A stretch of DNA of 64,000 nucleotides from contig NZ_JAAGPD010000043.1 of NCBI RefSeq assembly GCF_017104565.1, forward strand, positions 1-64,000, in the 5' to 3' direction. The notes under the pieces are model-generated. The model was not told the DNA's origin, did no database searches, and saw only the letters and a program-made list of their open reading frames with translations. This DNA is from Paraburkholderia sp. Tr-20389 (GTDB lineage: Bacteria > Pseudomonadota > Gammaproteobacteria > Burkholderiales > Burkholderiaceae). The position numbers were made by a program, and so were the translations under genes. Shown piece by piece: positions 34,053 through 54,555 of this stretch. Each line of letters begins with the position of its first letter. Position 1 is the stretch's first letter.

Positions 34053-34262
34053 TCAGATCGCCATCGGCGCCGTCAGCGGCTCGTGATGCCGGTAGCCGAC
34101 CAGCGAAAAATCGGACGGCTCGACCTTCTCCAGCCACTCGGGCTCGTAGACACCCGTCTTCGCGTACTCGGGCACGCGCTCCGAAATCGCGAACTGCGGG
34201 CTCTCGTATGGATCGCGGGTCAGTTGCTGCTGCAACATGTCGAGCTGGTTCTCGTAGATGTG
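34053..34262 (-). pseudogene. thyA: Thymidylate synthase 3' fragment (host thyA remnant)
   Basis: About 70 codons on the minus strand encode the C-terminal end of a thymidylate synthase. It starts at [20 protein letters not shown], which aligns with the conserved H-x-Y-x-N-H segment, and ends [19 protein letters not shown]. The catalytic Cys region and everything before it are missing. The frame stays open to 34355, but that part has no likeness to thymidylate synthase and is island sequence. The core terminator lies just beyond its stop, as expected for a native gene end. The 5' part is not found in the window; it should lie past the right end of the island. Confidence 0.82.
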
Positions 34263-34433
34263 TTTATAGAACCAAAAATAAAGTGCCACTGCCAATGGAA
34301 ACATTAGCTTCGGCCGCGAACAGCAACGCCCTTCAGCTTGTTTAAATAGAACCAAATTAATTGCTCAATTAACCACCACCTTTGTAGCATCCAAATGTGC
34401 ATGGTTATCGACAACCGAATTGGTCTTACCAAT
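34262..34433. repeat. Repeats at the left end of the island
   Basis: Two imperfect direct copies of GTTTA(AA)TAGAACCAAA lie at 34262-34276 and 34340-34356. A perfect palindrome TTAATTGCTCAATTAA lies at 34357-34372, and an inverted repeat ATTGGTCTTACCAAT at 34419-34433. They are AT-rich and sit between the thyA break and the first recombinase gene, so they are candidates for recombinase binding and the att core. Confidence 0.6.
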
Positions 34434-34493
34434 GTGGTCATGCAGTTCCAGTTTTGGCAGGAAGACGCCCCTGTCTGCGAGGGTTAACGCGAG

Positions 34494-35720
34494 ATGAACT
34501 TCGGTTTTGAAGCACGATTGATGGCTATTCGAGCCGCTGACGCTGAGTCAACGGTGTTGTCCAGTGGGGATACGATTTGCTGGTCATTTGCCGACAGTGC
34601 CTACCCCATATATAGCGTGCTCGACAGCTCTGGGGCCGTTGTCAGAACAATGCACAACTGGCTACGCCACCTACGCGAGCAGGCTGGTCTAACCTACAGC
34701 TCAAATACCATTCCACAGTACGGTCGGACGCTCTCATACCTTTGCCGCTGGATGGAAAGGAACCGACCGTTCCCGAGCATAAACGTCGACGAATACGTCA
34801 AACTGCTCAGTCGAACAGACCTCGTTCACTGGCTGAATGCCATGAAGGCGGAAGGTGCCGAGAGCCACAACACGTTGCATTCACGCGAGGCCTGTGTGAA
34901 GGAGTTCTTGGATTGGTTGACTACGATTGAGGGTGGTCGGATTCGGGATTCTGTCAACTCTCCTTGGGGCCGTGATGGGACACTCGGATACATCACGGCA
35001 ACACCAAACGCGCGTAGTCCAAAATTTATCTCCGCCGAAATCGTTATCGAGCTCTTGAGTGGCATGCATAACGAATGCGAACGATGTATGTTTCACGCGC
35101 AATACGACATGGGGCTCCGCATCGCAGAGTTGGTAGACCTCACCGTCGCTGATATTCCGGATGGTTCACTATACAACTCCGCTTTTGAGTTAATTCCCGT
35201 GAGCGTGCAACGCGGCAAAGGGCGAGCTGACCAGCGACCAGAAAAGACTACCCTAATATCCAGAGCCGTCCTTAGGCGGATACATCGCTATCACAATAGC
35301 CGCGAGTACAAGCTCGCTCCGGACTGGGACATCAATGACCCTGTCAAGCCCGCCTTTTTGACTGCCAATCAATTGAAATGGAGCGCGCGAAACGCCTCTA
35401 AGCAGTTCAAGTCGGCCTTGCGACGAGCGGGACTCAACGATGACATGTCGACGCATTGGATGCGCCACGGCACTGCTTACTCCGTATTGCGGTCCGACAT
35501 CGGAAAGGACTACCAGGACAGGATGCTACTTATTAAGGAAATGCTTGGTCATAGGAACCTAACTACCACAGAAATATACACACAGATTTCTCCTGCTTTG
35601 CTGCAACAGATTACTAAGGCCGGGAAGAAAATCAATCGGCTCTGCGAAGCCGAATTCATACGTGAAAGGACGTTCCTTGGTCCGCTGCAGCATAGTGAAA
35701 GGCGCGGCCACCGTGAATAA
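34494..35720 (+). CDS. ginA: Tyrosine recombinase, GinA-like (first of three)
   Basis: The 408-residue protein is a phage-integrase-family tyrosine recombinase. An N-terminal SAM-like core-binding region covers about residues 50-140. The catalytic domain has Arg I in YDMGLRIAELVDLTV, the His-x-x-Arg box in HWMRHGTAYSVL, and LGHRNLTTTEIYTQI with the nucleophilic Tyr. All catalytic residues are present. It is first in a run of three recombinases plus a small protein, as in ginABCD of GInt islands. Its TAA overlaps the likely GTG start of the next gene. The symbol reflects position and size; no alignment was run. Confidence 0.85.
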   Translation: MNFGFEARLMAIRAADAESTVLSSGDTICWSFADSAYPIYSVLDSSGAVVRTMHNWLRHLREQAGLTYSSNTIPQYGRTLSYLCRWMERNRPFPSINVDEYVKLLSRTDLVHWLNAMKAEGAESHNTLHSREACVKEFLDWLTTIEGGRIRDSVNSPWGRDGTLGYITATPNARSPKFISAEIVIELLSGMHNECERCMFHAQYDMGLRIAELVDLTVADIPDGSLYNSAFELIPVSVQRGKGRADQRPEKTTLISRAVLRRIHRYHNSREYKLAPDWDINDPVKPAFLTANQLKWSARNASKQFKSALRRAGLNDDMSTHWMRHGTAYSVLRSDIGKDYQDRMLLIKEMLGHRNLTTTEIYTQISPALLQQITKAGKKINRLCEAEFIRERTFLGPLQHSERRGHRE

Positions 35721-37815
35721 CGAACCAGTACGACTCGCTACTCCTCCAAAGCCAACTTTGGTCGACCCCTACGCACAGATTAAGTGGATGTTTTTCCAGT
35801 TGGAGGCCGAGTTCGAGGGAAGCAGTGCGTATCGATTCCATTATGCCTTGAACAAGTATTTGGAGTTTGTAGCCGAAACGAACGCCAACTATCCAGACCT
35901 CCTAACGAACAAGCGCTTCTACCTTTCCAAACATTGGGAGGCCGATGCCTTGTTCCGCTTTACCAAATGGCTCACAGGCCAAACTCTGAGCAGTAGAACC
36001 CGTTACGCCATCTATAAATCCGTTCGGCAGGTCATGGACATGGCGTACGCGCTACGCGTAATCGATACAGGCATTCATCATCCACTTGTATTCAAAGGAG
36101 TGTCCGAAACCAAACAACGTTCCGCGTACGCGATGCCTGAACAAGAAGTAATAAACGCGTCGGTCGCTCGATGGATAAGCTTAGGACACAGTGTCCTCTG
36201 TGGCTACATACCGACCAATTTAGGCTTCCCGTATCGCCGCAGGTACCGCTCCACTATTTCGGTCGATAACCAGCTCTTCACCTTGACTGAAGCAGCCAAT
36301 CGATTCGGCATTAGTCAGAAAAATCTGTCTGCTCGAATCCATGATGGATGGGCGTCACGACAAGCAGTCGGTCTCGACCCACCGCCGCCTCCAAAAACGA
36401 AAACCGAAATCATCGTTGAGGGAGTCTACTACCCGAGTATGAGTGCGGCCGCAGCCGCATACGGGTCAACTATTAGCGTAGTAGCTCAAAAAATCCGCAG
36501 AGGGTATAGCCCAGAACAAAGCGTGGGAATCGAACCTATCCATGTCTTAAAAGGTGATGACCTAGGGTTGCTTTGGATGTTCGAAAACGAATACGGGTGT
36601 AACGCATCGGCAATGTACGATGACTTCTGCAGTAAGCGAAGCCTCGCACAAGAGTGTCCTCGAGAGCGGCTCTTGAAGCTCTTCATGCGCTGGGGAGTCT
36701 GGCCGTTTATCGATGACCGCTTGATTATGCCGCTCGCGCTCGAACTCAGCATACTCACCGGACTCAACGTCGAATCTCTCAGGAAACTCAATGTCGACTC
36801 CTACCAAGCAGAGCACCCACTGACCGGCCAATCGGCCATAACCCATCATAAGAGACGGTCCGGTAGCCCCACCCGCCCCGAGGAGAGAGTCTTACATGTT
36901 CCTCTGCTTGACGACCCTGAGGACTTAAATCTTGATGAGCATGTTGCGAAGAAGGTCGAAGCGCTCTGGGGAATGATTGTCGCTTTAACAGCGAAAATAA
37001 GAAGGAACGCTCCCGCAGAGATAGCGAACCGGCTATTCATATTCGAAGATGTCGAGGCGTCCAAGCGGGAGAAGAGACAAGTCATCGTCGGAATCGAGCC
37101 GAAGGGAAAAGCGAGAGTCTGGAACCGGCGCTTTGTTAGAGAAGAAGGACTCCTTCGCCATTTTGGAGATGACTTTAGCTTTAATCTCGCTCGCTGTCGG
37201 CCCACGCTCGCGACAAATAAGGTCTTAGAGGGAGCAAGCCTCTTCCGCGTGCAAGCAGTTTTGGGGCATAAGAGTATTCAAACGACGGCGACCTATCTGG
37301 ACGAGCAAAATCTGAGGCCGGCGTTTAATCGAACGGTCTCTGAAGCGCTTGAGCGCATCGCTCAGCGCTCTCGCGATGCTCGTGAGATGGAACAATCGAC
37401 GCTCTCAGTGGGGCGACCGCAAACAATCACGCCAACTGCCTTCCACGAAACCCTTTCAGGATGCGGATGCTGTGACCCGTATAACCCGAGCGAAGACGTT
37501 CGTGCGATTACCCTTCACGTTGAGGGTTCCGTCTGCAAATTTTGGAATATGTGCTTGCGCTGCGACAGTGCAATCGTCACGGAGCACTCCCTGCCCAAGC
37601 TCATCCTTTACCGAAATCGTGTAGCGGCAGCGCTTATGGAGGACTCTCCTGCTATCCGGAGCAGGAAGGACCTGTATCGCGACGCGGTCACGCTTATTGA
37701 CGGTCTGCTTGCAGATGATGTCATCTTTCCGGCCCATGTCGTCGAGAATGCAAGGACTCTCGCGATTGCTATGGACGACATTTTGGTTGACCACCTGATT
37801 TATCAAGGAATTTGA
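35713..37815 (+). CDS. ginB: Large recombinase-like protein, GinB-like (second of three)
   Basis: The protein has about 700 residues if it starts at GTG 35713, which overlaps the ginA stop; GTG 35662 is an alternative. Two copies of a helix-turn-helix-like unit occur near 36,280-36,540: FTLTEAANRFGISQKNLSAR and a second with YPSMSAAAAAYGSTISVVAQ, each followed by G[WY]-x-x-x-Q-[AS]-V-G. The C-terminal recombinase domain keeps LGHKSIQTTATYLDEQ with the Tyr. The Arg I position reads TGLNVESLRKL and the His box reads LARCRPTLAT, so two usual catalytic residues look replaced. A Cys cluster (SGCGCC, CKFWNMCLRC) follows. It probably works with its neighbours rather than alone. Confidence 0.8.
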   Translation: MNNEPVRLATPPKPTLVDPYAQIKWMFFQLEAEFEGSSAYRFHYALNKYLEFVAETNANYPDLLTNKRFYLSKHWEADALFRFTKWLTGQTLSSRTRYAIYKSVRQVMDMAYALRVIDTGIHHPLVFKGVSETKQRSAYAMPEQEVINASVARWISLGHSVLCGYIPTNLGFPYRRRYRSTISVDNQLFTLTEAANRFGISQKNLSARIHDGWASRQAVGLDPPPPPKTKTEIIVEGVYYPSMSAAAAAYGSTISVVAQKIRRGYSPEQSVGIEPIHVLKGDDLGLLWMFENEYGCNASAMYDDFCSKRSLAQECPRERLLKLFMRWGVWPFIDDRLIMPLALELSILTGLNVESLRKLNVDSYQAEHPLTGQSAITHHKRRSGSPTRPEERVLHVPLLDDPEDLNLDEHVAKKVEALWGMIVALTAKIRRNAPAEIANRLFIFEDVEASKREKRQVIVGIEPKGKARVWNRRFVREEGLLRHFGDDFSFNLARCRPTLATNKVLEGASLFRVQAVLGHKSIQTTATYLDEQNLRPAFNRTVSEALERIAQRSRDAREMEQSTLSVGRPQTITPTAFHETLSGCGCCDPYNPSEDVRAITLHVEGSVCKFWNMCLRCDSAIVTEHSLPKLILYRNRVAAALMEDSPAIRSRKDLYRDAVTLIDGLLADDVIFPAHVVENARTLAIAMDDILVDHLIYQGI

Positions 37816-37816
37816 C

Positions 37817-39682
37817 ATGGAACCGACCCCCTCTTTCCCAAGCGAGGACGATGTCAAAGTTGGGCAGGCGGTGTTTGCAGATGACATGCCCATCTGGTTG
37901 GGTGTATTCGGAGCAGACGTTTGGCCCTTTATTGAACCAAACTCTCCCCTTTATCAAGGACCCAGTTCCTCGAGTATCGTCTGGAGGGACTATATCGAGG
38001 GGCGCGGTGCAACATATAAACATCCGACCTCTACTACCTCCACAAAGTATCCTGTCTGCCTCACACCCGAGATAGTTTACGACCTCAAGGTTGCGGCTGT
38101 TATTCATTGCCGCTTACCGCATCTGATTAAGCATGCGAGGTCGTCCAAGAAGCAACTTGACCCGAAGACCGTAAAAGGTCGCATCAATGACTTGGCAGTT
38201 TTTTTCTCATTGCTCATCCGTAGGGCTAACCAGACGTCACAATTGAAGGTCACTCGACTCTCCGAAATCCCATTCTCTCTACTGAAGGAGTCAATCGCTG
38301 CGTATCCTGGTCGGGGCGCACATCTTAAGAGAGCGTTAAAGCTCATCTCTGACCCCGTAGTCCAGCGGAACCTCCGGGCCCCATTGCAATGGGGCCTACT
38401 TGACATCACTAAGTCTTCAATCAATTGGAGCGAGTCCAAGGATGAAGGTGGCATTCCACCATTATCTGACATCCAGTTTCTGTTCCTTTTGGAATACTGC
38501 AAGAAGACAATCGCACGGTTCAAGAGAATCGCCGAAGTCGGCATTCACGATAGAGAGTGTCAATCTTTGTCTGCGTCTCCACAACTGGATGACGCCAAGT
38601 TCGACCTATCGAAACTAGAGCTGTACTTTCGAAATCCCAGAGCATTATGCATAAAAAAACATGGCGTCTCTCGCAGCGAGATGAGACAGCTTGTGTACGA
38701 CGCCCAAATGTGCGCCATGCTTGTAGTCCTACTGTTCACGGGCATGCGCCATACGGAAACCTTGTTTGTCCGCCGCCATTGCCTAAAATTTCAGCATGGG
38801 TACTGGTTCCTGAATTCAAAAGAAGTTAAGCATCGCCCCAAGGACACGCCTGTCTGCGAAGGATGGTTAGCAATCGACTTGACACGAGATGCTTATGATG
38901 TACTGATGTTCATAACCAAAAGAACCGGCACGCAATACTTGTTCTCGTCACCCCTTAGCAGAAAAGGTGGCGTCGGCTACAAATCTCTCAACTCGATTTT
39001 CAATCCGTGGCTCAAAAGAATTGACGAAAAAGGACTCTTCTCAAACTGGTCTTTTTCGATTCATCAGTGCCGCGAAACTCTTGTAGCGCAGCTTGCTAAC
39101 CAAGAAGTCGGATTGCCGTTCATTAGTATGCAGCTCAAGCATTTTCATAGCCAGTTCTTCACGATGCCCAATGCCGTTACGGCCGGTTACGGCAAGTATC
39201 GTGAGCGCTTAATGACCAGTGTGACGAACCGGATAGCGATTGCGAGAGAAAATGCTCTTTTGGACCTCTATGGAGAGGACGCCAAGTTTGCTGGAGGCGG
39301 CGGGACGGCGCACAAGGCACGCATCGATGCATTCTTTGCTGGGTTAGGGCTATTCGGGGACACACGTCGCGAGTACATCAAGCGTATGGCCGAGCGAGGA
39401 GTGACACTCATGCCGACCAGCATAGGGAACTGCGCAAAGAATTTTATAATCCCAACCGAGAATGGGCCGCCGCCGTGCTACGGAGACTACCAGTGTGACC
39501 CAAACTGCTCTAGTCACGTCATTACCGACCGGGCTGCGCACGCGCTCATAGCTCGAAGGCAGCATGCGCTCGAACAGGGTGAACGCGAACCAAGTGGAGA
39601 CATCAAAATAGTCTGGTTTGGCCTCGTCGAGAAGCTCGACGCACATATCGACAAACTGCAAAAGGGGAATCCCAATGTCTGA
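37817..39682 (+). CDS. ginC: Tyrosine recombinase, GinC-like (third of three)
   Basis: The 621-residue protein has a divergent tyrosine recombinase domain. Arg I is in LLFTGMRHTETLFVRRH, the His box in FSIHQCRETLVAQLAN, and MQLKHFHS supplies the second His region. A Tyr is present in the following VTAGYGKY. The C-terminal 120 residues have Cys-rich segments (NCAKNF, PPPCYGDYQCDPNCSSH) that may bind metal. It begins one base after the previous stop and overlaps the next gene by eight bases (ATGTCTGA). The third recombinase of a GInt-type operon. Confidence 0.8.
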   Translation: MEPTPSFPSEDDVKVGQAVFADDMPIWLGVFGADVWPFIEPNSPLYQGPSSSSIVWRDYIEGRGATYKHPTSTTSTKYPVCLTPEIVYDLKVAAVIHCRLPHLIKHARSSKKQLDPKTVKGRINDLAVFFSLLIRRANQTSQLKVTRLSEIPFSLLKESIAAYPGRGAHLKRALKLISDPVVQRNLRAPLQWGLLDITKSSINWSESKDEGGIPPLSDIQFLFLLEYCKKTIARFKRIAEVGIHDRECQSLSASPQLDDAKFDLSKLELYFRNPRALCIKKHGVSRSEMRQLVYDAQMCAMLVVLLFTGMRHTETLFVRRHCLKFQHGYWFLNSKEVKHRPKDTPVCEGWLAIDLTRDAYDVLMFITKRTGTQYLFSSPLSRKGGVGYKSLNSIFNPWLKRIDEKGLFSNWSFSIHQCRETLVAQLANQEVGLPFISMQLKHFHSQFFTMPNAVTAGYGKYRERLMTSVTNRIAIARENALLDLYGEDAKFAGGGGTAHKARIDAFFAGLGLFGDTRREYIKRMAERGVTLMPTSIGNCAKNFIIPTENGPPPCYGDYQCDPNCSSHVITDRAAHALIARRQHALEQGEREPSGDIKIVWFGLVEKLDAHIDKLQKGNPNV

Positions 39683-40166
39683 ACAAAGACTTGATAAACC
39701 TGAGCGACGTCCGCACGAGCTGACCAAGCATCTCGACGCCGCATCGATAGACAACGATACGCGTATCATTGAGGCCCTGGCGAGGCTCGAGGACCCCAAA
39801 AAACGCGGGAAACTGAAGATTACAGTGTCCTCGATTTGCAAGATAACTGGATTGTCAAGAAACACCATACGGAACAGGGATTGGGCTCTGGGTCGACTTA
39901 AATCATTGAAGCAGGCCCTCAAGCAAGGCTCGGTAACCCCGGGTGAGAGCGGCTCTAAGGCAGAGGCAACTGAAATCACGTCGAACGAGTTGCGGGCGCG
40001 AATTAAACGAGTTTTGGAACAAAACGCGCTGTTATACGAGGAAATCCTTGCGTTGCGCGACATAATCGCAAAACGGGACGCTCATATTGCCTCCCTGCAG
40101 TCCGGGGACAATATTTCGATTTTTCCTCAAAAATCAGCAAAAATAGACAATCGGATGCAAGAATGA
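39675..40166 (+). CDS. ginD: Small coiled-coil protein, GinD-like
   Basis: The 163-residue protein has a helix-turn-helix-like stretch ([20 protein letters not shown]) in the middle and a C-terminal coiled coil ([20 protein letters not shown], then [16 protein letters not shown]). It contains no catalytic motif. In ginABCD operons the fourth gene encodes such a small protein, needed for recombination. It overlaps the third recombinase gene by eight bases. Its TGA overlaps the thyA ATG in an ATGA. It may act as a DNA-binding recombination directionality or assembly factor; this is inference. Confidence 0.75.
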
Positions 40167-40996
40167 AGCAATATTTGGAACTTCTTCACGATATTTTAGA
40201 GAACGGCGTCATAAAGGGCGACCGAACTGGAACGGGAACAACGTCTGTGTTCGGCCGCCAATTGCGGCACAACCTGGCGAAGGGCTTTCCCCTCCTAACG
40301 ACTAAGAAGCTTCATTTCAAAAGCATTGCCAACGAGCTAATCTGGTTCCTGAGCGGCAACACGAACGTTAGTTGGCTCAAAGAGAACGGTGTTTCCATCT
40401 GGAACGAGTGGGCTACGGAAGACAACGAGCTCGGTCCCGTTTATGGCAAGCAATGGACCGCGTGGCCGACCAAGGACGGCGGGACCATCAACCAGATTGA
40501 CTACGTCATCAAGACGCTCCGGGAGAAGCCAAACAGCCGGCGTATCCTCTTCCATGGCTGGAATCCTGAGTATCTCCCGAACGAGTCCATCAGTCCGCAA
40601 GAGAACGCGAAGCAAGGTCTCATGGCATTGCCGCCGTGTCACCTGCTCTATCAGTTCTACGTCGCGGAAGGCAGGCTATCGGCTCTGCTGTACATCCGCA
40701 GTTCGGACAGCTTCCTCGGCCTCCCGTACAACATCGCATCGCTGGCCCTCCTGACGCATATGGTCGCGCAACAGTGCGACTTGATTCCGCATGAAATTAT
40801 CGTCAGCATCGGGGACCTGCATGCGTATTCCAATCATATGGAGCAGATTCAGACACAGCTCACTCGAGACGTTCGCGAGCTGCCCAAGCTAAATATCAAG
40901 CGCCGCCCCGATTCGATTTACGACTACAAGTTTGAAGACTTTGAAATCGTTGGCTACAACCCGCACCCCAGTATTGCAGCTCCCATTGCTGTCTGA
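40163..40996 (+). CDS. thyA: Thymidylate synthase carried by the island
   Basis: ThyA methylates dUMP to dTMP with methylene-tetrahydrofolate and is essential without external thymidine. The 277-residue protein is complete: the N terminus [20 protein letters not shown], the phosphate-binding Arg in [33 protein letters not shown], the active-site Cys in [46 protein letters not shown], and the C-terminal [11 protein letters not shown]. It is translationally coupled to ginD by ATGA and has the same direction as the recombinases. It differs clearly from the host fragment at 34053, so it is not a duplicate of it. It probably replaces the broken host gene. Confidence 0.95.
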
Positions 40997-41333
40997 GATG
41001 TCTCACAGTTGAATCGCGCGCGGCCCTCCTCACTCCGTGAGAGTGCCGCGCCAGCAGCAGCCAAGCTTCATCCTCCCTTCCCTTCCCCTCCCCTCCCCTC
41101 CGTAGTTGCTTCTGCGTCCCTCGGCTTCGCCATTCGAGCCACGGAGCCCCCGCTTCAATCCAGATGAGCAACTCAACCGTGCCCCCAGCCCACGCGCGCG
41201 GAAATCGTCGCGCCATTTATTAAGGGTCTGAGCACAATCAAAATCTTGGCAAGAACACTATTAGTTGTATATATTTGCATGTGAAGCACCACATTTGGTG
41301 CTATACAACGAAATGCGATTTCGGGGTTCCCAC
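40997..41333. other. Intergenic region, 337 bases
   Basis: A pyrimidine-rich run of CCCTTCCCTT/CCCCTCCCCT units lies at about 41070-41103. An AT-rich stretch before 41334 may hold the promoter of the metallopeptidase gene. No gene or clear terminator is seen. Confidence 0.4.
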
Positions 41334-42020
41334 ATGCACGACATCGACAAGCTCTCCATCGCGGCTGAGGTGCGACGCTTCCAGTTTGAAATCTGGCAGC
41401 GCGCGGGGACCACGCACAGCACCGTCCCGCATCTGCTTCAGCTTTTCCGCCCTGACCACGCGGCCTCGGTGCATAACATCGAGTACGAAGTGACCGCGGG
41501 CTCGCTCGGCGTGCACGGGGTCGGCAACGCCCAATACCAGGTAGCCGGGCTGGTCGACGTTCCGCGCTCAACGATTCGTATTGCAGGAAACCTGCCCTAC
41601 GAGGTTCAGCGCTTCACCGGAGCACACGAACTCGGCCATATTGTGTTGCACCCCGGACTCTCGCTCCATCGCGACCGCCCCCTTCTCGGTGACGCACCGG
41701 TCCTCGACCGCCGCGAGCGGGAGGCCAACTACTTTGCCGCGTGCTTCCTTGCGCCGGAGAAGCTATTGCGCCGCGCGTTCAAGCAGCGATTTGGCACCGA
41801 CATGCTCCACCTCGACGACAACGTAGCGTTCGCTATCGCCGGCAACGGCTCGCAGGACCTTCTCAGGTCGAAAACCGGGTCGCTTGAGTTTCCGCGCGCG
41901 GTAGCGACTGCGCGGAAGTGCGGCATTGGCAACCACTTTAAGTCGCTCGCTGAGGAGTTTGGAATGTCGCCGACCGCCATGGCGATTCGCATCCACGAGC
42001 TCGACTTGGTCAGCTACTGA
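41334..42020 (+). CDS. ImmA/IrrE family metallo-endopeptidase
   Basis: The 228-residue protein has the zinc protease motif AHELGHIVLH with H98, E99 and H102, preceded by a strand region ending YEVQRFTGAHELGH. RREREANYFAACFLAPEKLL follows with the third ligand Glu. This is the ImmA/IrrE (M78) layout. Known members cut repressors of mobile elements, or act in DNA-damage responses. The N-terminal 90 residues are helical. ATG 41334 is chosen; ATG 41313 is in frame. It is next to a TIR gene 131 bases downstream. Confidence 0.88.
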   Translation: MHDIDKLSIAAEVRRFQFEIWQRAGTTHSTVPHLLQLFRPDHAASVHNIEYEVTAGSLGVHGVGNAQYQVAGLVDVPRSTIRIAGNLPYEVQRFTGAHELGHIVLHPGLSLHRDRPLLGDAPVLDRREREANYFAACFLAPEKLLRRAFKQRFGTDMLHLDDNVAFAIAGNGSQDLLRSKTGSLEFPRAVATARKCGIGNHFKSLAEEFGMSPTAMAIRIHELDLVSY

Positions 42021-42151
42021 TGGCGTGCAGCCTGACAGCACGTGGGCTACTCCGCCTCACGCGTTCGCTCAAGCCAAGTTGCCATATTATGGTGACGACG
42101 ACGGCATAGCCGCTTACAACACGCATCTGAATTTTTTTGCTGGACTACTGC

Positions 42152-43132
42152 ATGGCATCGGTTTTCTTCTCATACACGCACATCGACGAATCGCTGCGCG
42201 ACCAGCTCGAAATCCACCTCTCGCTGATGAAGCGCGAGGGCCTGATTTCGGCATGGCACGACAGACGCATCGTCGCCGGCGACAACCTCGACGACAGTAT
42301 CAATGAGCAGCTCGAGAAGGCCGACATCATTTTGCTACTGGTCAGCGCGAATTTCATTGCGTCCGAATACTGCTTTTCAACCGAGATGACGCGTGCTTTG
42401 GAGCGGCATAAGACCGGCGAAGCGCGCGTCATCCCAGTCATCCTGCGAGCATGTGACTGGCACAGTGCTCCGTTCGGCAAACTGAATGCGGTCCCGACGG
42501 ACGGTCGGCCGGTCACCTCTTGGGCCAACCAAGACGAGGCGTTCGCCGACATAGCGAAGTCGATTCGTAAAGCTGTGGCAGCATCAGCCTCGTCGTCCGC
42601 ACCCAAGGTGAACGCGGCATCGGCAGTGAGAAGCTTGCCGCCTCGGCCCGCAGCCATCGAACCTTCCGTGACCTCGCAACTGCCGCGGTCGAGCAACCTT
42701 CGCGTCAAGCATGAGTTCTCAGACCTCGACAAGGACACGTTCGTTTCTGAGACGTTCGACTTCATTGCACGCTTTTTCGAGGGTTCGCTCCAGGAGCTGG
42801 AGAAGCGACACGGCCAGTTTCAAGGACGCTTTTCGCGCATCGATGCGCGCCGGTTCACCGCGAGCATCTATAAGGACGGGAAGAGTGTGTCGCAGTGCAC
42901 CGTTACGCACGGCGGGGCGTTCGGTGGGCACAGCAATCGCGAGATAACATATTCGAACCAGATTTCCTCGCACGCGAACAGCTACAACGAAGCGCTCACG
43001 CTCACTGAAGATAGCCAGACGCTTTATCTGAAGCCGATGATGAGCATGGCGCGAGACGTGTCCGAGAAACTGTCTGACACCGGGGCAGCTGAGCATCTGT
43101 GGTCGATGCTTATCGAGCGGATACAACGGTAA
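42152..43132 (+). CDS. TIR domain protein, probable NADase effector
   Basis: Residues 1-145 are a TIR domain: VFFSYTHIDESLRDQLEIHL, WHDRRIVAGDNLDDSI, then IILLLVSANFIASEYCFSTE with the candidate catalytic Glu78. Such bacterial TIR domains cleave NAD+ in anti-phage defence. A Ser/Pro/Ala linker follows. The C-terminal 150 residues (from FSDLDKDTFVSETFDFIARF to the end LWSMLIERIQR) form a separate mixed alpha/beta domain that I do not recognise and that may be the sensor. ATG 42152 gives the canonical TIR N terminus. No known Thoeris partner is adjacent. Confidence 0.87.
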   Translation: MASVFFSYTHIDESLRDQLEIHLSLMKREGLISAWHDRRIVAGDNLDDSINEQLEKADIILLLVSANFIASEYCFSTEMTRALERHKTGEARVIPVILRACDWHSAPFGKLNAVPTDGRPVTSWANQDEAFADIAKSIRKAVAASASSSAPKVNAASAVRSLPPRPAAIEPSVTSQLPRSSNLRVKHEFSDLDKDTFVSETFDFIARFFEGSLQELEKRHGQFQGRFSRIDARRFTASIYKDGKSVSQCTVTHGGAFGGHSNREITYSNQISSHANSYNEALTLTEDSQTLYLKPMMSMARDVSEKLSDTGAAEHLWSMLIERIQR

Positions 43133-43274
43133 TTTGCGGCAGGCCACCGCGACAATAGCGCCAGATGACGTGCCACGCGCGTGATAACAACAACGCTCCC
43201 GCACGTCCTCAAATTTATTCAGGTGCTCTGGCGGCCTACAGCACGTCTCGCGTGAATCGCCCTTGCTATCGCCC

Positions 43275-44123
43275 ATGACCACTCTGACCACGAATGCGAA
43301 TCTTGCCTTGATGCACAAACAGGCAAGCGATTTCTTGAGCCTTGACCAAGCGGCCCGCGCGCAGTCGGACTGGTTCAAAAGCTTTCGTGACGACAAGGAC
43401 TTCCGCAGCTTCTTCAAAAAGAAAAAGGTGCTCGCAAAGGGCACGAGTTTGCAGGTCACGGTGATTTCCCAGATTGCCCGCGCGATTGTCGATTGCATCG
43501 ACGAAGGCGAACCGGACCTAGCTCCTACCGGGTCTGAAGTCAACGACATCATGAAGAGCGCCACAGACCTGGCAACCAAGCTGACTGCCGCGCGCCCTTC
43601 CTGGCTTGCTCCGGGCGCCCGGACGCGCGGTTTCCAGGAGCCGCTGCGGACGCTCCAGACGATGCCGTCGATTGTGCCGCCCCGAACTGCAGGCCGCTTG
43701 CCGATGACGCAGCGTCGAACGCTGATTATCCGGCTCGCCCATGCCATCTACGAGGCTTGTGACGAAATTCCCATCCGAGTCATTACTGCGGTCGTCGTAC
43801 GCGCTTGGGAAGAAACCCTGGAACGCCAAGTCTACGATGTGCTGACCGCTGTCGAACGCGTAAGTATTCGAGCGCTCGTCGAAGCGAAGCGCATGAACCA
43901 AGCAAACGTTGAGAACACAGCACATCTAGCACTGAGCCGCGCAAGTGTTCCGCGTAACCGTGCGGCGGTGACGCCGGACACGCGGACCGACGCCCAGCGG
44001 CTAGCTCAGGCTCTCGAAATCGTGGGCGGCTGCGCAGATGAGACTGCGGCAATCGTGCTTTACGACGCGCTCAGCGTCGCCAGCGCCGAACCTGGGTTAG
44101 AGCCGGACTCGACCGAGCAGTGA
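43275..44123 (+). CDS. Hypothetical protein, helical
   Basis: I do not recognise this 282-residue protein. It is soluble and mainly helical, with a Lys-rich patch FRSFFKKKKVLAKG near residue 45 and a second helical half from about residue 140. No nuclease, membrane or nucleotide motif is visible. ATG 43275 starts it, 142 bases after the TIR gene on the same strand. Being next to a TIR effector suggests, but does not show, a defence role. Confidence 0.65.
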   Translation: MTTLTTNANLALMHKQASDFLSLDQAARAQSDWFKSFRDDKDFRSFFKKKKVLAKGTSLQVTVISQIARAIVDCIDEGEPDLAPTGSEVNDIMKSATDLATKLTAARPSWLAPGARTRGFQEPLRTLQTMPSIVPPRTAGRLPMTQRRTLIIRLAHAIYEACDEIPIRVITAVVVRAWEETLERQVYDVLTAVERVSIRALVEAKRMNQANVENTAHLALSRASVPRNRAAVTPDTRTDAQRLAQALEIVGGCADETAAIVLYDALSVASAEPGLEPDSTEQ

Positions 44124-44259
44124 AAACCTGCGGAAATTGGGCTCGTTTTCTGGCCTATTTCCTCCAGTTTTTTTCGGCTGAATTTGCTTGGTATTTCGGT
44201 AGTAGTGTTTCGAGCCGACAGGTGAACAATACGTCCTGTCATAGCTTCCACTGCATCGA

Positions 44260-44628
44260 ATGCAAAAACACATCAAACCGCGGGATTTCCGGTCCTTCGA
44301 CAGAATCATCGCCACTTGGCCAGACAACACTGCCGAGCATCAGCGTGCGCGCTTGCTGGATGCAATGCGGCTGTGCGCGGGGATTACGACACTGGAGGCC
44401 ATGCGCTACCTCGACGTCATTGACCCCCGAACGCGAGTGGTTGAACTGCGCAGAGAGGGTTATCGCATCGTCACCTCGTGGGTCTGCCAGCCGTCAGAAT
44501 GCGGCCGCCTCCACAACGTCGGGCTGTACACGCTTGCCGGCGTCGCAACCGACATCATCACGGGCACGAAAGTGACCCCCCTGACCAAGTCGGGCAGTTC
44601 CCAGTTAGTGCTTGCTCTCTGGCACTGA
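44260..44628 (+). CDS. Small helix-turn-helix protein (phage type)
   Basis: The 122-residue protein resembles short HTH proteins found in prophages and islands. The region reads RLLDAMRLCAGITTLEAMRY, then DPRTRVVELRREGYRIVTSW. This is a winged-helix pattern in which the wing contains the GYRIVT turn. It probably binds DNA, perhaps as an island regulator. It is convergent with the metallopeptidase-like gene on the minus strand. Confidence 0.72.
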   Translation: MQKHIKPRDFRSFDRIIATWPDNTAEHQRARLLDAMRLCAGITTLEAMRYLDVIDPRTRVVELRREGYRIVTSWVCQPSECGRLHNVGLYTLAGVATDIITGTKVTPLTKSGSSQLVLALWH

Positions 44629-44693
44629 CGGCGCACGCAGCGCGGGTTGGGTTTATTCACCGTTCATCGCTTACCAGCCCGCCAACGGCGACC

Positions 44694-45194
44694 TCAATGA
44701 GATGCTCGGCCTCCTGCTTCACGGCCGGCCAGCCCCCCCTGCAATATCCGCACTGACTCTTCGACGTCTTCGTCACAAAGTTGGTAGTCGTCGATGGCAG
44801 TAATACCCATCGCAGCCAAGTCGGTCGCGGATGCCTCATCGCTCGAGATTCTGTATCGCACCGCGTCGGCAATCAAGCTGGGTTCGTCCGTTTCGCTATT
44901 CAGAATTTCCTCGGCTACCAGGCCAGCGATGCCATAGAGAAAGCTCCAGTTCGCTGGCAAGTCCGGAAAGGGTATTCCGGCCGTCACCGCAGCCCGGCGC
45001 ATCGTCTCTGGACAGGTCCGAGGACGAAATTGGCCGAACCAGGCGCGCTCGTCCGGGTTCCCGCTATTGTTCTTCCAGACTACCGCATCACCGGCACCGC
45101 CAAAGCGCTCGTAGACCGTCTTATGAGTCGCTTCATGGTATGCAGCGGTGCGGAGCTCGCGAGAAGCTATAAGTTCTTCGTTAAGTTCAATCAT
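44694..45194 (-). CDS. Stand-alone FtsH-M41-like zinc peptidase
   Basis: The 166-residue protein has the motif AAYHEATHKTVYERFGG with H20-E21-x-x-H24, which parallels the AYHEAGHA zinc motif of FtsH (M41). Later, YGIAGLVAEEIL matches the FtsH region LAGRAAEEI, and SDEASATDLAAM matches its A-x-x-DL segment. The AAA domain and membrane segments of FtsH are absent. It may be a small protease working with other island proteins. This is motif reading only, and the third metal ligand is not certain. Confidence 0.65.
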   Translation of the reverse strand: MIELNEELIASRELRTAAYHEATHKTVYERFGGAGDAVVWKNNSGNPDERAWFGQFRPRTCPETMRRAAVTAGIPFPDLPANWSFLYGIAGLVAEEILNSETDEPSLIADAVRYRISSDEASATDLAAMGITAIDDYQLCDEDVEESVRILQGGLAGREAGGRASH

Positions 45195-45560
45195 GTTCGT
45201 TGCGAGTGTTGGGTTTGGTCACCCCTAGCGTATAGCTTGGAAAATGGCCAATGACGAAGCACCGCACATTTATGCTCGCAACAACCCGCGCCGTCCTCGC
45301 GGCAGACTCGCCGCCGACACTCGGGAATCAAATACCCGCGTAGTTGATTCCGTAGCGCCGCTCTCGATGACAGTTTGGACACAAGGCCATCGCATTCTCA
45401 ACGGTAGCTCAAGAATATTTCAGCCGCGAGTTGCACGAGCGACAGTGTTCCTCTTAGTATCATCCATCGGGAAGGCTGCCGATAATAACCAAACGCCATC
45501 AAAAATAAGCATTCGCTCGACTCCTGATGATGACCATTGAGCGATGCGTAGGAGCTATGC
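45195..45560. other. Intergenic region, 366 bases
   Basis: This lies between divergent genes. An open frame at 45244-45540 lacks any ribosome site or recognisable sequence and I do not call it. The region should hold promoters for both neighbours; none is convincing. Confidence 0.4.
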
Positions 45561-46187
45561 ATGACCACAGTCGAAGAACTACTCATGTCTGCCGTTGAAT
45601 CTAAGAGCGAAGTCGTCATCATTTACAACGGCGGAAGCCACCCGGGGAAGCCAAGACCGATTATTCCTATCGATATTCGAGAAAACTCTGTATTCGCCAG
45701 AGAGCCCGGGTTAGCTCGGGAGAAAACTTTCCATCTCAACAAGATTTCCCGCGTGACGCATGCAGACGGCGCAACCGCTGAAAACGTAATGGTGGCTCCA
45801 GTTGTCGCTCCGGGCATTCTAACTTGCAGCACATTCGACGAATATGTGGTGAAGCTAAGGTCGCAATATCTTGAGCGGGGCTGGTTTGTTATTCATGACG
45901 CAGTTGAACAAAGATTCGGGATTTCTCGGTTCTTGAAGAACGGCGCGCCCCGTAAGAAAGCGGCGATTCAAATAGCATTCGTAGACCGCTCGAAGGAAGT
46001 CGTTTTCGACATTGACACCGGCGAGGTAGCTGTGCGAGAAAAGCCACTTACCGGCCGCGAGCGTCCGTGGCGAGTAGACAGCGAGCTTCAACCACAGGGT
46101 AAGTCGTTTGCGCGGCTTCAAGATGCTTTCGCGTTCCTCTCCAAGGACATCGACTCTGCCGACCCGAAAGCTCCCGTGGGTAAGTGA
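45561..46187 (+). CDS. WYL-like domain protein
   Basis: The 208-residue protein starts with a region resembling WYL sensor domains: SEVVIIYNGGSHPGKPRPII then FAREPGLAREKTFHLNKIS, with the pattern Y...g..R.i.P and a closing phe-x-l-x-x-i strand. The rest is a mixed beta/alpha domain with no recognised motif. WYL domains bind nucleic acids or other ligands and often regulate defence systems. The next gene starts 32 bases later, so the two probably work together. Weak family call. Confidence 0.6.
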   Translation: MTTVEELLMSAVESKSEVVIIYNGGSHPGKPRPIIPIDIRENSVFAREPGLAREKTFHLNKISRVTHADGATAENVMVAPVVAPGILTCSTFDEYVVKLRSQYLERGWFVIHDAVEQRFGISRFLKNGAPRKKAAIQIAFVDRSKEVVFDIDTGEVAVREKPLTGRERPWRVDSELQPQGKSFARLQDAFAFLSKDIDSADPKAPVGK

Positions 46188-46219
46188 GCCATTAGAGCGC
46201 GACCAATCGGAGCCGAGTG

Positions 46220-47815
46220 ATGAGCGACAACGGAACCGCAACCGAGACGGCTGGGGCGAAAGGCGTTGGGCATACCCAGGACAATTACAAAGGTATCTTC
46301 GATATTTCGGACGCAGATGGCGTAAACGAGTCCGAAAGGCTGTTGATGCGACTTTGCCGTCGGTCTTTTCTCAGTCTCTGGTCGTTCGCCAACCTGCATA
46401 CAGACCAAGACATGAGGGACGGCCGCGGAAGCGCGAAGGAGTTCGCCGATGTGCTCGTGGTATTCGGGAACGATGTTGTCATATTTTCCGACAAGCACGT
46501 CGCCTTCCAGCAGGACCAAGAGCTGTCAGTTGCGTGGAAGCGCTGGTACAAGCGTGCAGTCAGCTCCTCAGCCAAACAGCTACATGGGGCAATGGGTTGG
46601 GCAAGCCGCTTTCCACATCGCGTCTATCTTGACAGCGCGTGCCAGCGACCGCTGCCTGTATCCATTCCGGACGCAAGTCAGGCTCGGTATCACCTTGTCG
46701 CGGTCACCCGGGGAAGCGTGGAAGCATGTGCGACGCACTTCGCCGGGAGCCGTGGCACCCTCGTCATCAACACTGAGGTCAAGGGGCCGGCGCACGAGAA
46801 TTTCCCGTTCACGGTGGGCGTGGTCACACCGGGGAAGGAGTTCGTCCATGTTTTTGACGAAATATCGCTTGAATTTGTTCTTCGCGAACTCGACACCGTC
46901 TCTGATTTCGTTGCGTACCTCAGTGACAGGAGAGCTCTCCTCGACCGGCCCGAAACTGGTGTCATTGCCCCAGGTGAAGAGCAACTTTTAGCGGCGTATC
47001 TGAGAAATGGTGACGAGCTGCGGCGCAGCTTTCTTCCAACGAACCAGCAACACGAGAACCCCGGCCTCATCTTATTCGATGAAAGACAGTTCGAAGGCTT
47101 GATGGGGAATCCGCAATATGTCGAGAAGAAGCGCCTCGACAGACCGAGCTACTTCTGGGATGCGTTGATAGAAAATTTCATTCGTCTTGGCGACCCGAAC
47201 GAACTCGTTCCCTACTTCCACCAGGAAAACGCTGACCTCGAAGAGGGTCTTCGACTCCTCGCTCGAGAGTCGCGCTTTCGACGACGCATCCTTTCGGACG
47301 CCTGTGCCGGGGCGTTGAGGTCCGCCCGTGCAAAGAATGCTCGCAATGCGAGACTTTTCACGACAGACCAAGAGCCAACAACCGTATATGTCTTCCTCAT
47401 TCAGCCCAAGGATGACGAAGACGATTATGCGGCTTATCGGCGGCATCGAATTGCCGTTCTCCATGCGTACACCAAGTGCGCCAAGCTTCGGTTCCCTGAA
47501 GGTACAACCTTCATAGGCTTGGCCTTCGACCATCCAAACAAGAACTACCGTGGCTCCTCGGAAGACTTGTTTGTGTTCAATTGCGAGCATTTTAGCGATG
47601 AGGACCGAGCCGAGGCTGAGCGCTACCGCCGTGACCTTGGAATCGTGAGGGAGGGCCTAGAGGTCAAGCGTATGCACGCTTCAGAATATCCAGACTTCAT
47701 CACACGCGCTGACACAGCAGCTCAGGATGCTAAGTTTGCGCAGGCGCGCCAAGAGAAGAGGAAACGCAACCGCGCGAAGATGGCAAAGGCTTCGAAGCGT
47801 CGGAATCGGAAATAA
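46220..47815 (+). CDS. PD-(D/E)xK-like nuclease-related protein
   Basis: The 531-residue protein has a nuclease-like segment near residue 75: AKEFADVLVVFGNDVVIFSD followed by K. It reads as E...D-V-(x)n-S-D-K, compatible with a divergent PD-(D/E)xK core. KQLHGAMGWASRFPHRVYLD and a large helical region follow. The C terminus is a strongly basic tail (EKRKRNRAKMAKASKRRNRK) suited to binding nucleic acid. ATG 46220 is used; a GTG lies just before at 46217. It follows the WYL-like gene on the same strand. Function is inference. Confidence 0.6.
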   Translation: MSDNGTATETAGAKGVGHTQDNYKGIFDISDADGVNESERLLMRLCRRSFLSLWSFANLHTDQDMRDGRGSAKEFADVLVVFGNDVVIFSDKHVAFQQDQELSVAWKRWYKRAVSSSAKQLHGAMGWASRFPHRVYLDSACQRPLPVSIPDASQARYHLVAVTRGSVEACATHFAGSRGTLVINTEVKGPAHENFPFTVGVVTPGKEFVHVFDEISLEFVLRELDTVSDFVAYLSDRRALLDRPETGVIAPGEEQLLAAYLRNGDELRRSFLPTNQQHENPGLILFDERQFEGLMGNPQYVEKKRLDRPSYFWDALIENFIRLGDPNELVPYFHQENADLEEGLRLLARESRFRRRILSDACAGALRSARAKNARNARLFTTDQEPTTVYVFLIQPKDDEDDYAAYRRHRIAVLHAYTKCAKLRFPEGTTFIGLAFDHPNKNYRGSSEDLFVFNCEHFSDEDRAEAERYRRDLGIVREGLEVKRMHASEYPDFITRADTAAQDAKFAQARQEKRKRNRAKMAKASKRRNRK

Positions 47816-48000
47816 GCAAACATGTCGCGCGCGTCAAGGGTGCAATGCACAGCTGGCATCCAATCCTTTAGAAGTGAAGAAAGTATGCTCGAACCAGAGT
47901 AGAACATCTCGACATGCCCGGTGTTGCCCGCGATAAGCTCCAAGTTGTGAATCTGCCGGCGCATTGTAGCGAACTTCGAGTCGTATCGGCGGCGCTAGCC

Positions 48001-49494
48001 TCAGAAAGCTGTCGCCATCTGCTTCGGCCTTGCTCGCTCCATTAACCTTTCGTAAAACGGAGCGTAGACGTCGAAAAGGTGAGGCGGCAGCTCTGGGCTG
48101 CGGTAAGGCGGCTCGTTCAGAAGGTCGGACAGCAGTAGAAGACGCTTCTCCGGGATGCTTCGACGCGTCGTGTAGTCTTCAAAAAACATCGCGAATCCGC
48201 ACTTTTTCGTGCGAACAGCGTCGATAAGCCTGTCGACATGGTCGATGCTGAGAATGTAGACAGGGTTACTCGATGCGAAGTGGTCTGCCTCCGCAGTGAA
48301 TAGCTGGTCCGTCTCAGCCGCGAAAAGGTCGCCGTAGGTGACGACGACCTTGTGCACAGCTGCGTTTGGGTTGGTCTTATGTACGAAAGTCTCGACGTTC
48401 CTCAGTTGTTCATCCGCCTTCTTCACGGTTGCACTGAGCTTTGATGCGTAATCGCGTGCCGTGCCAGCAGCAGGAAGTGTATGAGTCAAGGCCTTATTCT
48501 TGACTTCGAGCAACACCACATCAGCCCCATCTATGACGGCGAAATCGCAGCACTTACCACCGACCGAAAAACGGGTCCGAACTTGCTCTTCGCTCAAAAT
48601 CTCGAGGCCAGTAAGATTTAGGCTGCGCCCGACGTACTCTTCGAACAGCTTTTCGAAGCTCTGCCGAATCCCGGGATTCTCGCTGCGACCAACGATGTCA
48701 CTTAACGCGTATCCCAGGTTGCGGTCAAGGCAACAGCGCCCCCAAAAATACCAAGCATCATTGCTGAGCCGTGTGAAGGGGGACCGGTAAAGTAGGTTCG
48801 GTTGGAACCATTCGTCCGTGCTGACCTCGTCGAACTGTTCCGCAGTCACCTCGCGGGGGATGAGCATGGTCTGATAGAACCGCTCGACAGGTACTCGGCC
48901 AAATATTTCCTGGAGACCAGCTCGGTATCTCGGGGCAATGACTGTCGAAATATCTTCGAGTGAATGCTTTCGAAAGAGAGTCGCGATGCCGAGAAAGTCC
49001 ATCGGCGGCATGCCTAGGCCGCTTTCGAACAGACGATAGAGATGCGAGTTCGGTTGCAGCTGATTGATGAGGTCAATCTGACGCGCGAAGGGCCCCAACT
49101 CTTGCTGTCGTTGGTGTGGAATTTGCGGGAGAATCCACGACCGAAGCGCAAGGTGAAACGAGCGACCGGAGCCGAATCCAGTAAACGCCAAATCAGCAAG
49201 CTTCCAGGCTTGGTCGATACACTGCCTTAATGCTTGCCGGGAGATGTCAACAAAACCATACATACGCGGCTCATCGCGCAACACCCAGACGGCTACGCGC
49301 TCGGCGAGCCATGGCGCGTGTGGCTTCCCATCATCTGCTGTGGATTCGGCCTTGATGAACTGAGACAGTTCAGCCAAAACGCTGCCGTAGGAAAATTTCC
49401 GGAGCTGGTTGCGGATTGGGCGAATCGCCTCGGCGTAGGTCATGCGTTCCGTCTCGTTTACAGTGATGAACGGCCGGCGAAGTAGCCAATGCAT
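48001..49494 (-). CDS. Third gene of CBASS-like operon, PD-(D/E)xK-like motif
   Basis: The 497-residue protein begins at an ATG directly after the SLATT gene's TAG, with no gap, so it is translated in the same operon. Residues 1-270 are helical with no known motif. The C-terminal half has FEKLFEEYVGRSLNLTGLEI, then CCDFAVIDGADVVLLEVKNK: E...D-x(n)-E-x-K, the PD-(D/E)xK nuclease core. A later start at ATG 49443 is possible. It is not a usual CBASS ancillary gene known to me (not Cap2/Cap3 or HORMA/TRIP13). It could be a second effector. Confidence 0.65.
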   Translation of the reverse strand: MHWLLRRPFITVNETERMTYAEAIRPIRNQLRKFSYGSVLAELSQFIKAESTADDGKPHAPWLAERVAVWVLRDEPRMYGFVDISRQALRQCIDQAWKLADLAFTGFGSGRSFHLALRSWILPQIPHQRQQELGPFARQIDLINQLQPNSHLYRLFESGLGMPPMDFLGIATLFRKHSLEDISTVIAPRYRAGLQEIFGRVPVERFYQTMLIPREVTAEQFDEVSTDEWFQPNLLYRSPFTRLSNDAWYFWGRCCLDRNLGYALSDIVGRSENPGIRQSFEKLFEEYVGRSLNLTGLEILSEEQVRTRFSVGGKCCDFAVIDGADVVLLEVKNKALTHTLPAAGTARDYASKLSATVKKADEQLRNVETFVHKTNPNAAVHKVVVTYGDLFAAETDQLFTAEADHFASSNPVYILSIDHVDRLIDAVRTKKCGFAMFFEDYTTRRSIPEKRLLLLSDLLNEPPYRSPELPPHLFDVYAPFYERLMERARPKQMATAF

Positions 49495-50950: not shown

Positions 50951-51100
50951 TTTTACCTTCTTCTCTCGATTTATATTTTGCCTTGGAGCAAGCTGCGCTC
51001 GGCCCTGTCACAGACCTCGCCGGATGCCAGCATTACATTATTATCTTTCAGAACACAGTATCAGGAAACCGTGACGTTTTAGAAGCAGAGATACGTTGCC

Positions 51101-52060: not shown

Positions 52061-52063
52061 GCT

Positions 52064-52345
52064 TCATCTCCGTAGACTGCATCGTATGTCGGTGCCGATG
52101 CATGACCCGTCACATCCGCTGCAGAAGTGCCGGTCGCGCACGCTACCGTCGACTCGCCAGCTGTTCGCGGCGCCAAGTGACTTGGTGCCCACGGTTCGGT
52201 CGTTCTCACTTGCGAAAAATGTTGGCTCGCCCGCTCTGCCGCGTGCGACTGCCTCGTCAATAGTCGCATCCCCGAACGCATGACGCAATTCGGCCACGAA
52301 CGCTGCTATCTCCGGCATCGGGTGCTTGCGTACAGGCATATCCAT
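52064..52345 (-). CDS. Small hypothetical protein upstream of SRAP
   Basis: The 93-residue protein has a helical first half (EIAAFVAELRHAFGDATIDE) and a Cys-rich end with HFCSGCDGSCIGTDIRCS, four Cys that may bind metal. I recall similar short proteins in Burkholderia, often of unknown role. ATG 52345 has GGGAG seven bases upstream. It ends three bases before SRAP, so the pair is co-transcribed. It is divergent from imuA across the LexA box. Confidence 0.7.
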   Translation of the reverse strand: MDMPVRKHPMPEIAAFVAELRHAFGDATIDEAVARGRAGEPTFFASENDRTVGTKSLGAANSWRVDGSVRDRHFCSGCDGSCIGTDIRCSLRR

Positions 52346-52404
52346 TATCGTCTCCCATCGCGCCCAAAAAGGGACACTTCACAAAGCAGGTTTTTGATAT
52401 ACGA

Positions 52405-52422: not shown

Positions 52423-52434
52423 CATTTTCCAACA

Positions 52435-54535: not shown

Positions 54536-54555
54536 GCGGTTAGGACGGTGCGCTC

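Follow-up and report, generated by a model that had tools for sequence, protein, structure and literature searches.

Why would a mobile element that breaks its host's gene for thymidylate synthase carry a second, dissimilar gene for the same enzyme? This question is raised by a 64,000-nucleotide stretch of DNA from the soil bacterium Paraburkholderia sp. Tr-20389 (hereafter the window), which comprises bases 1-64000 of contig C38 (96,591 bp) in a 9.0-Mb assembly. An initial annotation, made from the letters of the window, had described the remnant of a minus-strand thymidylate synthase gene, thyA, next to foreign DNA encoding a complete and different ThyA, and had proposed that the foreign gene replaces the broken one. 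Here, we describe a comparative analysis of this locus. The window contains the left part of a genomic island that begins with three tyrosine recombinase genes and a small fourth gene, here called ginABCD, followed directly by the replacement thyA. Comparison with other genomes indicates that this island is very probably an element of the GInt type whose attachment site is one fixed codon of thyA, and which breaks the host gene and carries its replacement as a conserved core.

Interruption of the host thyA

The initial annotation had delimited the island as 34053-40996. This interval takes in the left end alone. The island continues to ~88689 of C38, beyond the window, so that an element of ~54.4 kb (window position 34263 to ~88689) lies inside the host thyA (Table 1). 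The 3' fragment is present as described: when the intact ThyA of a same-genus genome (G020) was used as a tblastn query, residues 249-323 matched at 88% over 34056-34280. The native terminator said to adjoin this fragment is less certain, as an inverted repeat at ~33990-34030 reads as a terminator by eye but is absent from the sequence-scan list. A search past position 64,000 for the 5' part of the gene, which had been proposed as a check, located it at the far end of the island, and no restored full host gene is present there. Against the 323-residue ThyA of G020, one host fragment aligns with residues 1-257 and the other with 249-323. Their true meeting point is His codon 255 (GDAH/IY); the few residues that match past it on each side are island-encoded look-alikes. 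The 5' half continues into 11 island-encoded residues and then a stop codon, and the sole start listed for the frame of the 3' fragment in the open reading frame list is a TTG at 34355, inside the island.

At the left edge of the island the G+C fraction falls from 0.705 to 0.54, and it is 0.49-0.54 over 34-41 kb; at the right end the last three 100-nt steps have AT contents of 49, 57 and 56%, compared with 35-56% in the eight steps before. In relatives lacking the island at this site, the gene is intact. All three same-genus genomes compared (G020, G254 and G055) possess an uninterrupted 323-codon thyA, and they share with the window two neighbors of this gene, a regulator (90-94% identical) and a FecR-like gene (45-66% over the available part). 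These comparisons bear out the earlier proposal that the island has broken the host thyA.

Table 1. Features of the thyA island and its junctions (window coordinates unless a contig is given)
Feature	Position	Strand	Basis or remark
3' fragment of host thyA	34053..34262	-	codons 255-323 of 323 plus stop (last 69 codons, ends TAPMAI); no internal stop
CAC (His codon), first part of the shared crossover core CACNNN	34260..34262	-	junction comparison; island taken as starting at 34263
Left 29.7 kb of island	34263..64000		junctions; G+C shift
ginA-like tyrosine recombinase, 408 residues	34494..35720	+	Pfam PF00589, E 5.8e-16, over gathering cut-off
ginB-like recombinase, 700 residues	35713..37815	+	PF00589, E 8e-4, below curated cut-off; GTG start picked by eye
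ginC-like recombinase, 621 residues	37817..39682	+	PF00589, E 3.7e-6, over gathering cut-off
ginD-like small protein, 163 residues	39675..40166	+	no Pfam or NCBIfam match; ATG start picked by eye
Replacement thyA, 277 residues	40163..40996	+	Pfam PF00303, E 1.4e-108; NCBIfam NF002497 over cut-off
Stretch of replacement thyA corresponding to host target	40820..40828	+	CAT GCG TAT (His-Ala-Tyr), not His-Ile-Tyr
IrrE/M78 peptidase	41265-42020	+	PF06114
TIR protein, ThsB-like	42137-43132	+	PF13676; PADLOC ThsB, E 6.2e-130
CBASS-like neighbor	48001-49494	-	no Pfam or PADLOC match
CBASS-like: SLATT 2TM effector	49495-50088	-	Pfam/PADLOC
CBASS-like: SMODS cyclase	50066-50950	-	Pfam/PADLOC; locus 48001..50950
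Two genes before DnaE-type polymerase		+	stretch with the polymerase gene 52435..57705; no Pfam family at E 0.001
DnaE-type polymerase	54556-57705	+	PF07733 and others
SIR2-like defence protein	57817..59613	+	PADLOC PDC-S65, E 1.4e-203; PF13289
5' part of host thyA, codons 1-256	C38:88687-89454	-	outside window, far island end

The putative replacement thymidylate synthase

The island-encoded ThyA is complete and differs from the host enzyme, as the initial annotation had read it. It covers profile positions 1-266 of the 266 of PF00303, its residues 1-277 align end to end with the E. coli-type ThyA of PDB entry 1aob, with the active-site cysteine of the PCH motif aligned, and it is 34.5% identical to the intact 323-residue ThyA of G020. 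A second, intact host-type thyA elsewhere in the genome, which would have made the island copy redundant, was not found in the assembly, and a tblastn-type search with the island ThyA recovered only itself and the native 5' pieces. The assembly is a draft of 129 contigs with an estimated completeness of 100, and a missed copy of thyA is unlikely. The alternative thymidylate synthase gene thyX (PF02511) was found in none of the six island-bearing genomes introduced below, in a search whose control was positive in 6 of 14 named genomes. Neither another thyA nor a thyX having been found, no thymidylate synthase besides the island copy is known from this assembly. The ATG of the replacement gene overlaps the ginD stop by 4 nt, an arrangement in which thyA is probably translated along with the gin operon.

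In a tree of 42 sequences the ThyAs of the six islands form one clade (ultrafast bootstrap 100, SH-aLRT 99), and these, together with three plasmid ThyAs and one host copy (G883), stand apart from the other host ThyAs. The G883 enzyme is the nearest to the island ThyA of the window among 134 genomes of the class (119 with a match), at 66% identity; the plasmid enzymes are closer, at 77% (pMPPla107), 74% (p1_Teo6) and 74% (pZXPA-20-602k).

Recurrence at a single thyA codon

Six chromosomal islands that combine gin genes with thyA were found: that of the window and those of Caballeronia jiangsuensis MP-1 (G287), Caballeronia peredens LMG 29314 (G061), Burkholderia sp. LMG 13014, Paracidovorax konjaci and a further genome of the same order (G566). 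A sweep for ginC relatives matched 4 of 398 genomes of the family (the window genome, G061, G287 and G254) and 2 of 399 genomes of the order (the window genome and G566). Two gin-profile sweeps of the class, 369 genomes each, matched the window genome alone, and a sweep of 299 genomes from the family of G566 matched G566 alone. In a collection of species contigs, 65 stretches fit a pattern and 5 loci were confirmed. By source, three islands of the thyA type thus came from the family genomes, one more from the order genomes and two more from the species contigs, and these counts are lower bounds, since two peptide patterns served for the contig scan and few candidates were scored in each genome of the class sweeps.

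The break in the host thyA falls at the same codon in all six. Five show both halves: the window genome, P. konjaci and G566 have them on a single contig, the two Caballeronia on separate ones. Burkholderia sp. LMG 13014, where the contig stops inside ginB, shows the 5' half alone. The host ThyA of P. konjaci and G566 is of a different, shorter type, and the insertion site is unchanged. The 3' junctions read AAA followed by CACATCTAC (AAA-CAC-ATC-TAC) in all five islands for which this side is available. The 5' junctions of all six consist of CAC, three variable bases, TTT, two variable bases and GGAACC (five islands) or AGAACC (Burkholderia sp. LMG 13014). The three bases after CAC are ATC at the five 3' sides and ATT, TGC, TGC, ATG, GTG and CTG at the six 5' sides. 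The island ends are in inverted order, with GGTTC(C/T) at one and GGAACC (AGAACC in Burkholderia sp. LMG 13014) at the other.

Directly behind ginD, and on its strand, each of the six islands encodes a ThyA of 277 residues, the gap between the two genes measuring -4, 12, 12, 12 and 20 nt in the five islands other than that of G566. The pairing of a broken with a replaced thyA, which the initial annotation had proposed from one locus, therefore recurs in every chromosomal island of this type that was found. Because the same arrangement occurs at the same codon in related bacteria, breaking and replacing thyA seems to be a recurrent strategy and not a chance event.

Related modules on plasmids raise the question of whether the island thyA might instead be ordinary cargo, perhaps boosting DNA synthesis as on phages and some plasmids, with the insertion in thyA a coincidence. 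Phages often carry a ThyA match (3984 of 50,697 records); of 72,556 plasmid records, 936 have one. Two Pseudomonas plasmids, p1_Teo6 and pZXPA-20-602k, carry thyA directly after ginC-ginD, with an annotated 4-nt overlap, and neither module (L044 5972-12834 and L045 10185-12834) sits in a broken thyA; their GinC proteins are ~30% identical to that of the window, and no other ThyA match is present on either plasmid. One module has ginAB as well, and the second (L045) has no annotated ginA or ginB upstream, an IS30 transposase being there instead. Yet all six chromosomal islands pair one thyA codon with a ThyA after ginD, even though the window's ginC is only 51-66% identical to those of the other five, and behind thyA, C. 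jiangsuensis, C. peredens and P. konjaci carry other cargo, the window's first cargo genes being shared with Burkholderia sp. LMG 13014 only. We consider it quite improbable that the gene is coincidental cargo, and the simple form of this explanation was rejected on the pairing seen in six of six islands.

A second explanation overlaps with the one that we favor. Islands might insert in thyA with or without a thyA of their own, and sequencing would then reveal only the surviving carriers, with no need for site and replacement to have co-evolved. Cells without thymidylate synthase need thymidine, as such a filter presupposes, and the sample of islands is small. The fixed place of thyA after ginD, which is kept even in plasmid modules with so distant a GinC, points rather to an old and stable module, and we regard the filter by itself as unlikely to account for the islands.

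The gin genes and probable membership of the GInt class

GInts (Bardaji et al. 2017) are described as following a ginABCD plan, with cargo beginning at the ginD stop and an operon that possibly reads into the cargo (PMC5385486). Their short repeats are imperfect, and their junctions fit 6-nt staggered cuts and 3-nt heteroduplexes (PMC5385486). The class is further characterized by a dependence of excision and integration on all four gin genes and by a circular intermediate. The island of the window resembles them in having three tyrosine recombinase genes and a small fourth gene at its left end (34494-40166), in cargo that starts at the ginD stop, in a size of tens of kilobases, in a fixed insertion site, in junctions that fit a 6-nt stagger with a 3-nt variable part, and perhaps in its short imperfect direct repeats. 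Insertion is site-specific, at the same codon in each of the six islands. The flanking direct repeat in the window is short (CACATCTAC versus CACATTTTT), the published GInt repeats being 10-11 nt long and imperfect. Neither that repeat length nor the short AT-rich 3' end of published GInts is clearly seen in this island. The thyA islands differ from GInts as described in that they cut their target mid-gene and carry a replacement after ginD; the words thyA and thymidylate have no occurrence in the main text of the GInt paper (PMC5385486). On gene order, Pfam matches and junctions, likened to published GInts by their description, we regard the island as very probably a GInt-type mobile element.

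The gin genes are conserved in position among the islands. C. jiangsuensis, C. peredens, P. konjaci and G566 have a ginB homologue at the corresponding position, and Burkholderia sp. LMG 13014 has the 3' part of one; each of these five islands has a ginD homologue (44-59% identical) separating ginC from thyA. Tyrosine recombinases usually carry a TGxR motif. Within 35713-39682, the ginB product of the window reads TGLN by eye at this motif and the ginC product TGMR; among GInts, the published text reports a missing first arginine in GinC, not GinB (PMC5385486). Paraburkholderia nodosa (G254) has a related set of three recombinase genes (L012 9112-14016; 31-34% identical), and no ThyA match was found in the 20 kb around it. 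No conjugation genes or relaxase were recognized by eye among the listed open reading frames, where no search was aimed at them. As to a phage origin of the module, no ginC relative was found in phage records or in IMG/VR contigs (44 pattern matches, none confirmed).

Separate arrivals and the state of the host gene

The two Caballeronia islands permit a comparison of the age of the element with that of the gene it splits. C. jiangsuensis and C. peredens share 95.0 and 96.1% identity in their long island blocks, 86.0 and 88.6% in their long flank blocks and 81.8% in a 170-bp flank piece. For the island thyA, synonymous divergence between the two is 0.07; for the two host thyA halves it is 0.35 and 0.51. 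Because the islands are less diverged than the split host genes, they share a younger ancestor than those genes, and this indicates that the two insertions were separate arrivals at the same codon. Exchange within islands may also have occurred. Between the window and Burkholderia sp. LMG 13014, two long gin pieces are 66-67% identical in DNA and one block is 82% identical (window 40163-43128 versus L026 3081-6035), running from the thyA ATG through the IrrE and TIR genes, as if the gin module and thyA with its cargo had been exchanged against each other.

Several observations weigh against the proposal that the element breaks and functionally replaces thyA. The host thyA halves are still in open frame. 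The ratio of nonsynonymous to synonymous divergence (dN/dS) of the window 5' half against intact genes is 0.065-0.114, and 0.084-0.119 for intact pairs; in comparisons across genera it is 0.065-0.149 for the Burkholderia sp. LMG 13014 half and higher in the Caballeronia halves (5', 0.087-0.198; 3', 0.139-0.315). These ranges, together with the open frames, are compatible with recent insertion or reversible use and with slow decay. The steps in identity between the two Caballeronia fall up to ~0.5 kb away from the junctions and do not coincide with them exactly. No promoter-like match was found ahead of the gin operon or thyA, the segment 33950-41300 giving two matches, both past thyA, where 5.1 were expected by chance. 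Finally, since the plasmid gin-thyA modules do not lie in a thyA, carrying the gene is not strictly tied to sitting in it.

The open halves and the low dN/dS in the window could also mean that the split gene still works, its halves being expressed and reassembled, or frequent excision keeping a wild-type thyA in the population, so that the island copy is redundant. The CAC core shared by the two junctions fits with this, as exact excision should return the motif. However, within its host part the 3' half lacks a start codon, the reading frame of the 5' half passes into island-encoded residues and then closes with a stop, and in the comparable case of tmk in Pseudomonas putida the authors conclude that the two segments form no functional protein (PMC10653934). 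A working split gene is, in our judgment, very improbable, and replacement of a broken thyA by the island gene remains the preferred explanation.

His-Ala-Tyr in the replacement gene

The replacement gene differs from the host gene at the stretch that corresponds to the insertion site. All six island thyAs read CAY GCN TAY, encoding His-Ala-Tyr, whereas nine island-free host genes encode His-Ile-Tyr, as CAC ATY TAC (seven) or CAT ATY TAC (two). Among the nearest ThyAs of the class, the position of the alanine is occupied by Leu in 16, Ile in 9, Val in 1 and Ala in none (26 of 29 read, the count leaving out L067, L069 and L071). L014-L016 were also outside this motif script, and their thyA was read in the junction and divergence comparisons. 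With His-Ala-Tyr in place of the target His-Ile-Tyr, the rescue gene may escape insertion by the element's own recombinases. The motif is not unique to islands: that possibility was ruled out by plasmid pMPPla107, whose lone thyA has Ala too, with no gin gene annotated or matched beside it. The Ala change may thus be older than the gin-thyA module. The two plasmid gin-thyA modules, beside which there is no broken thyA, have His-Ile-Tyr. We keep the claim low that the rescue gene may be immune, as it is weakened by pMPPla107 and by the small numbers.

These features suggest, tentatively, a natural insert-and-rescue element: a GInt lineage for which one conserved thyA codon is the obligatory entry, in which a target-altered rescue thyA (His-Ala-Tyr) blocks self-insertion, and which is hard to delete while clean excision leaves an unscarred host. 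We lean slightly against this fuller scheme.

Cargo

The genes between 42137 and 59613 appear, by their family matches, to form a defence-rich cargo (TIR, CBASS-like and SIR2) beside a DnaE-type polymerase. The polymerase gene and the two genes before it perhaps constitute what we take to be an imuA-imuB-dnaE2 cassette, the names imuA and imuB being our assumption. The right part of the island (C38 ~67961-79665, corresponding to L004 7962-19666; and L005 65-1480) contains porin-, DapA-, alcohol dehydrogenase-, kinase/PdxA-, transporter-, DeoR- and TIM-like genes, named by eye, and is apparently a sugar-acid catabolism cluster.

Discussion

The observations at the thyA locus can be joined in the following model. 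Integration would split thyA within the GDxH(I/L)Y motif, at the codon for His, and remove approximately the last 67 residues, a loss from which the host enzyme should be dead. The foreign ThyA, encoded by the next gene after ginD as if it were a fifth gene of the operon, would supply deoxythymidine monophosphate (dTMP) instead; if it is active and expressed, it would keep the cell alive. The replacement gene would then belong to the conserved core of the element and not to its random cargo. Because the break and the replacement would arrive together, a highly conserved and conditionally essential gene could serve as a landing site in many hosts. Loss of the replacement gene alone would produce a thymidine-requiring cell, which may protect the 54-kb element from erosion. 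The CAC core is shared by both halves, so exact excision should rebuild a wild-type thyA. Thus the host should be protected against partial deletion of the island and yet not be locked to it forever.

A precedent exists for breaking a gene and replacing its function. In P. putida KT2440 a 65-kb island splits tmk, and genetics there showed that a dNMPK gene takes over its function (Wirth et al. 2023, PMC10653934). Such islands, with dNMPK and the same four neighbors, are reported from several Pseudomonas species, Acinetobacter, Psychrobacter and Halomonas, and the study calls its case a first-case example (PMC10653934). Like the thyA islands, tmk islands split an essential gene of the thymidylate pathway and replace the function, dNMPK being the last island gene there. 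They differ in their target, in a replacement from another enzyme family (a phage-like dNMPK), and in their conserved genes, given as those for a pair of tyrosine recombinases, one TetR/AcrR-like protein and one unknown protein (PMC10653934). In the thyA islands, by comparison, the disruption and a homologous replacement gene are both present, as known from sequence alone. By published descriptions, the gene set of the tmk islands resembles that of SEs, whose core is given as IntA, Tfp, IntB and Srap, the last with weak TetR likeness (PMC10214605), more than that of GInts, and tmk islands may be SEs.

The gene thyA itself is an integration site for another mobile element family, the integrative and conjugative elements (ICEs) found in it in several Acinetobacter genomes (PMC12904642). 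Those elements are conjugative and carry resistance cargo, and a replacement thyA is not mentioned in the section on them (PMC12904642). Among the matches listed in the open-licence literature, supplements not covered, none reported a GInt inserted in thyA or a replacement thyA borne by an island. Gene breakage with replacement is already known from the tmk islands; within that scope, the new part is a GInt-type lineage that does so at thyA.

Insertion at the ends of tRNAs or genes lets many mobile elements leave essential genes unharmed. The thyA island family instead interrupts the interior of a highly conserved metabolic gene and would make good the loss with a replacement right behind its recombination genes. 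Synthetic Cleave-and-Rescue drives, engineered nuclease systems of insects, are said to disable an essential gene and to carry a rescue copy that the element spares; the thyA islands differ in that they insert by recombinases, in bacteria and with no nuclease, and in that clean excision should undo the break. If the insert-and-rescue scheme holds, then, taken with the tmk islands, separate classes of multi-recombinase islands would have arrived at breaking and replacing genes of thymidylate synthesis. For genome annotation these islands call for caution, as a host thyA may look truncated while the island copy is taken as the native gene. For the bacteria that carry them, they suggest a simple and testable way for a large element to become difficult to lose; it would be a natural counterpart of engineered rescue drives and could help explain how defence-gene cargo such as TIR, CBASS and SIR2 is held in a genome.

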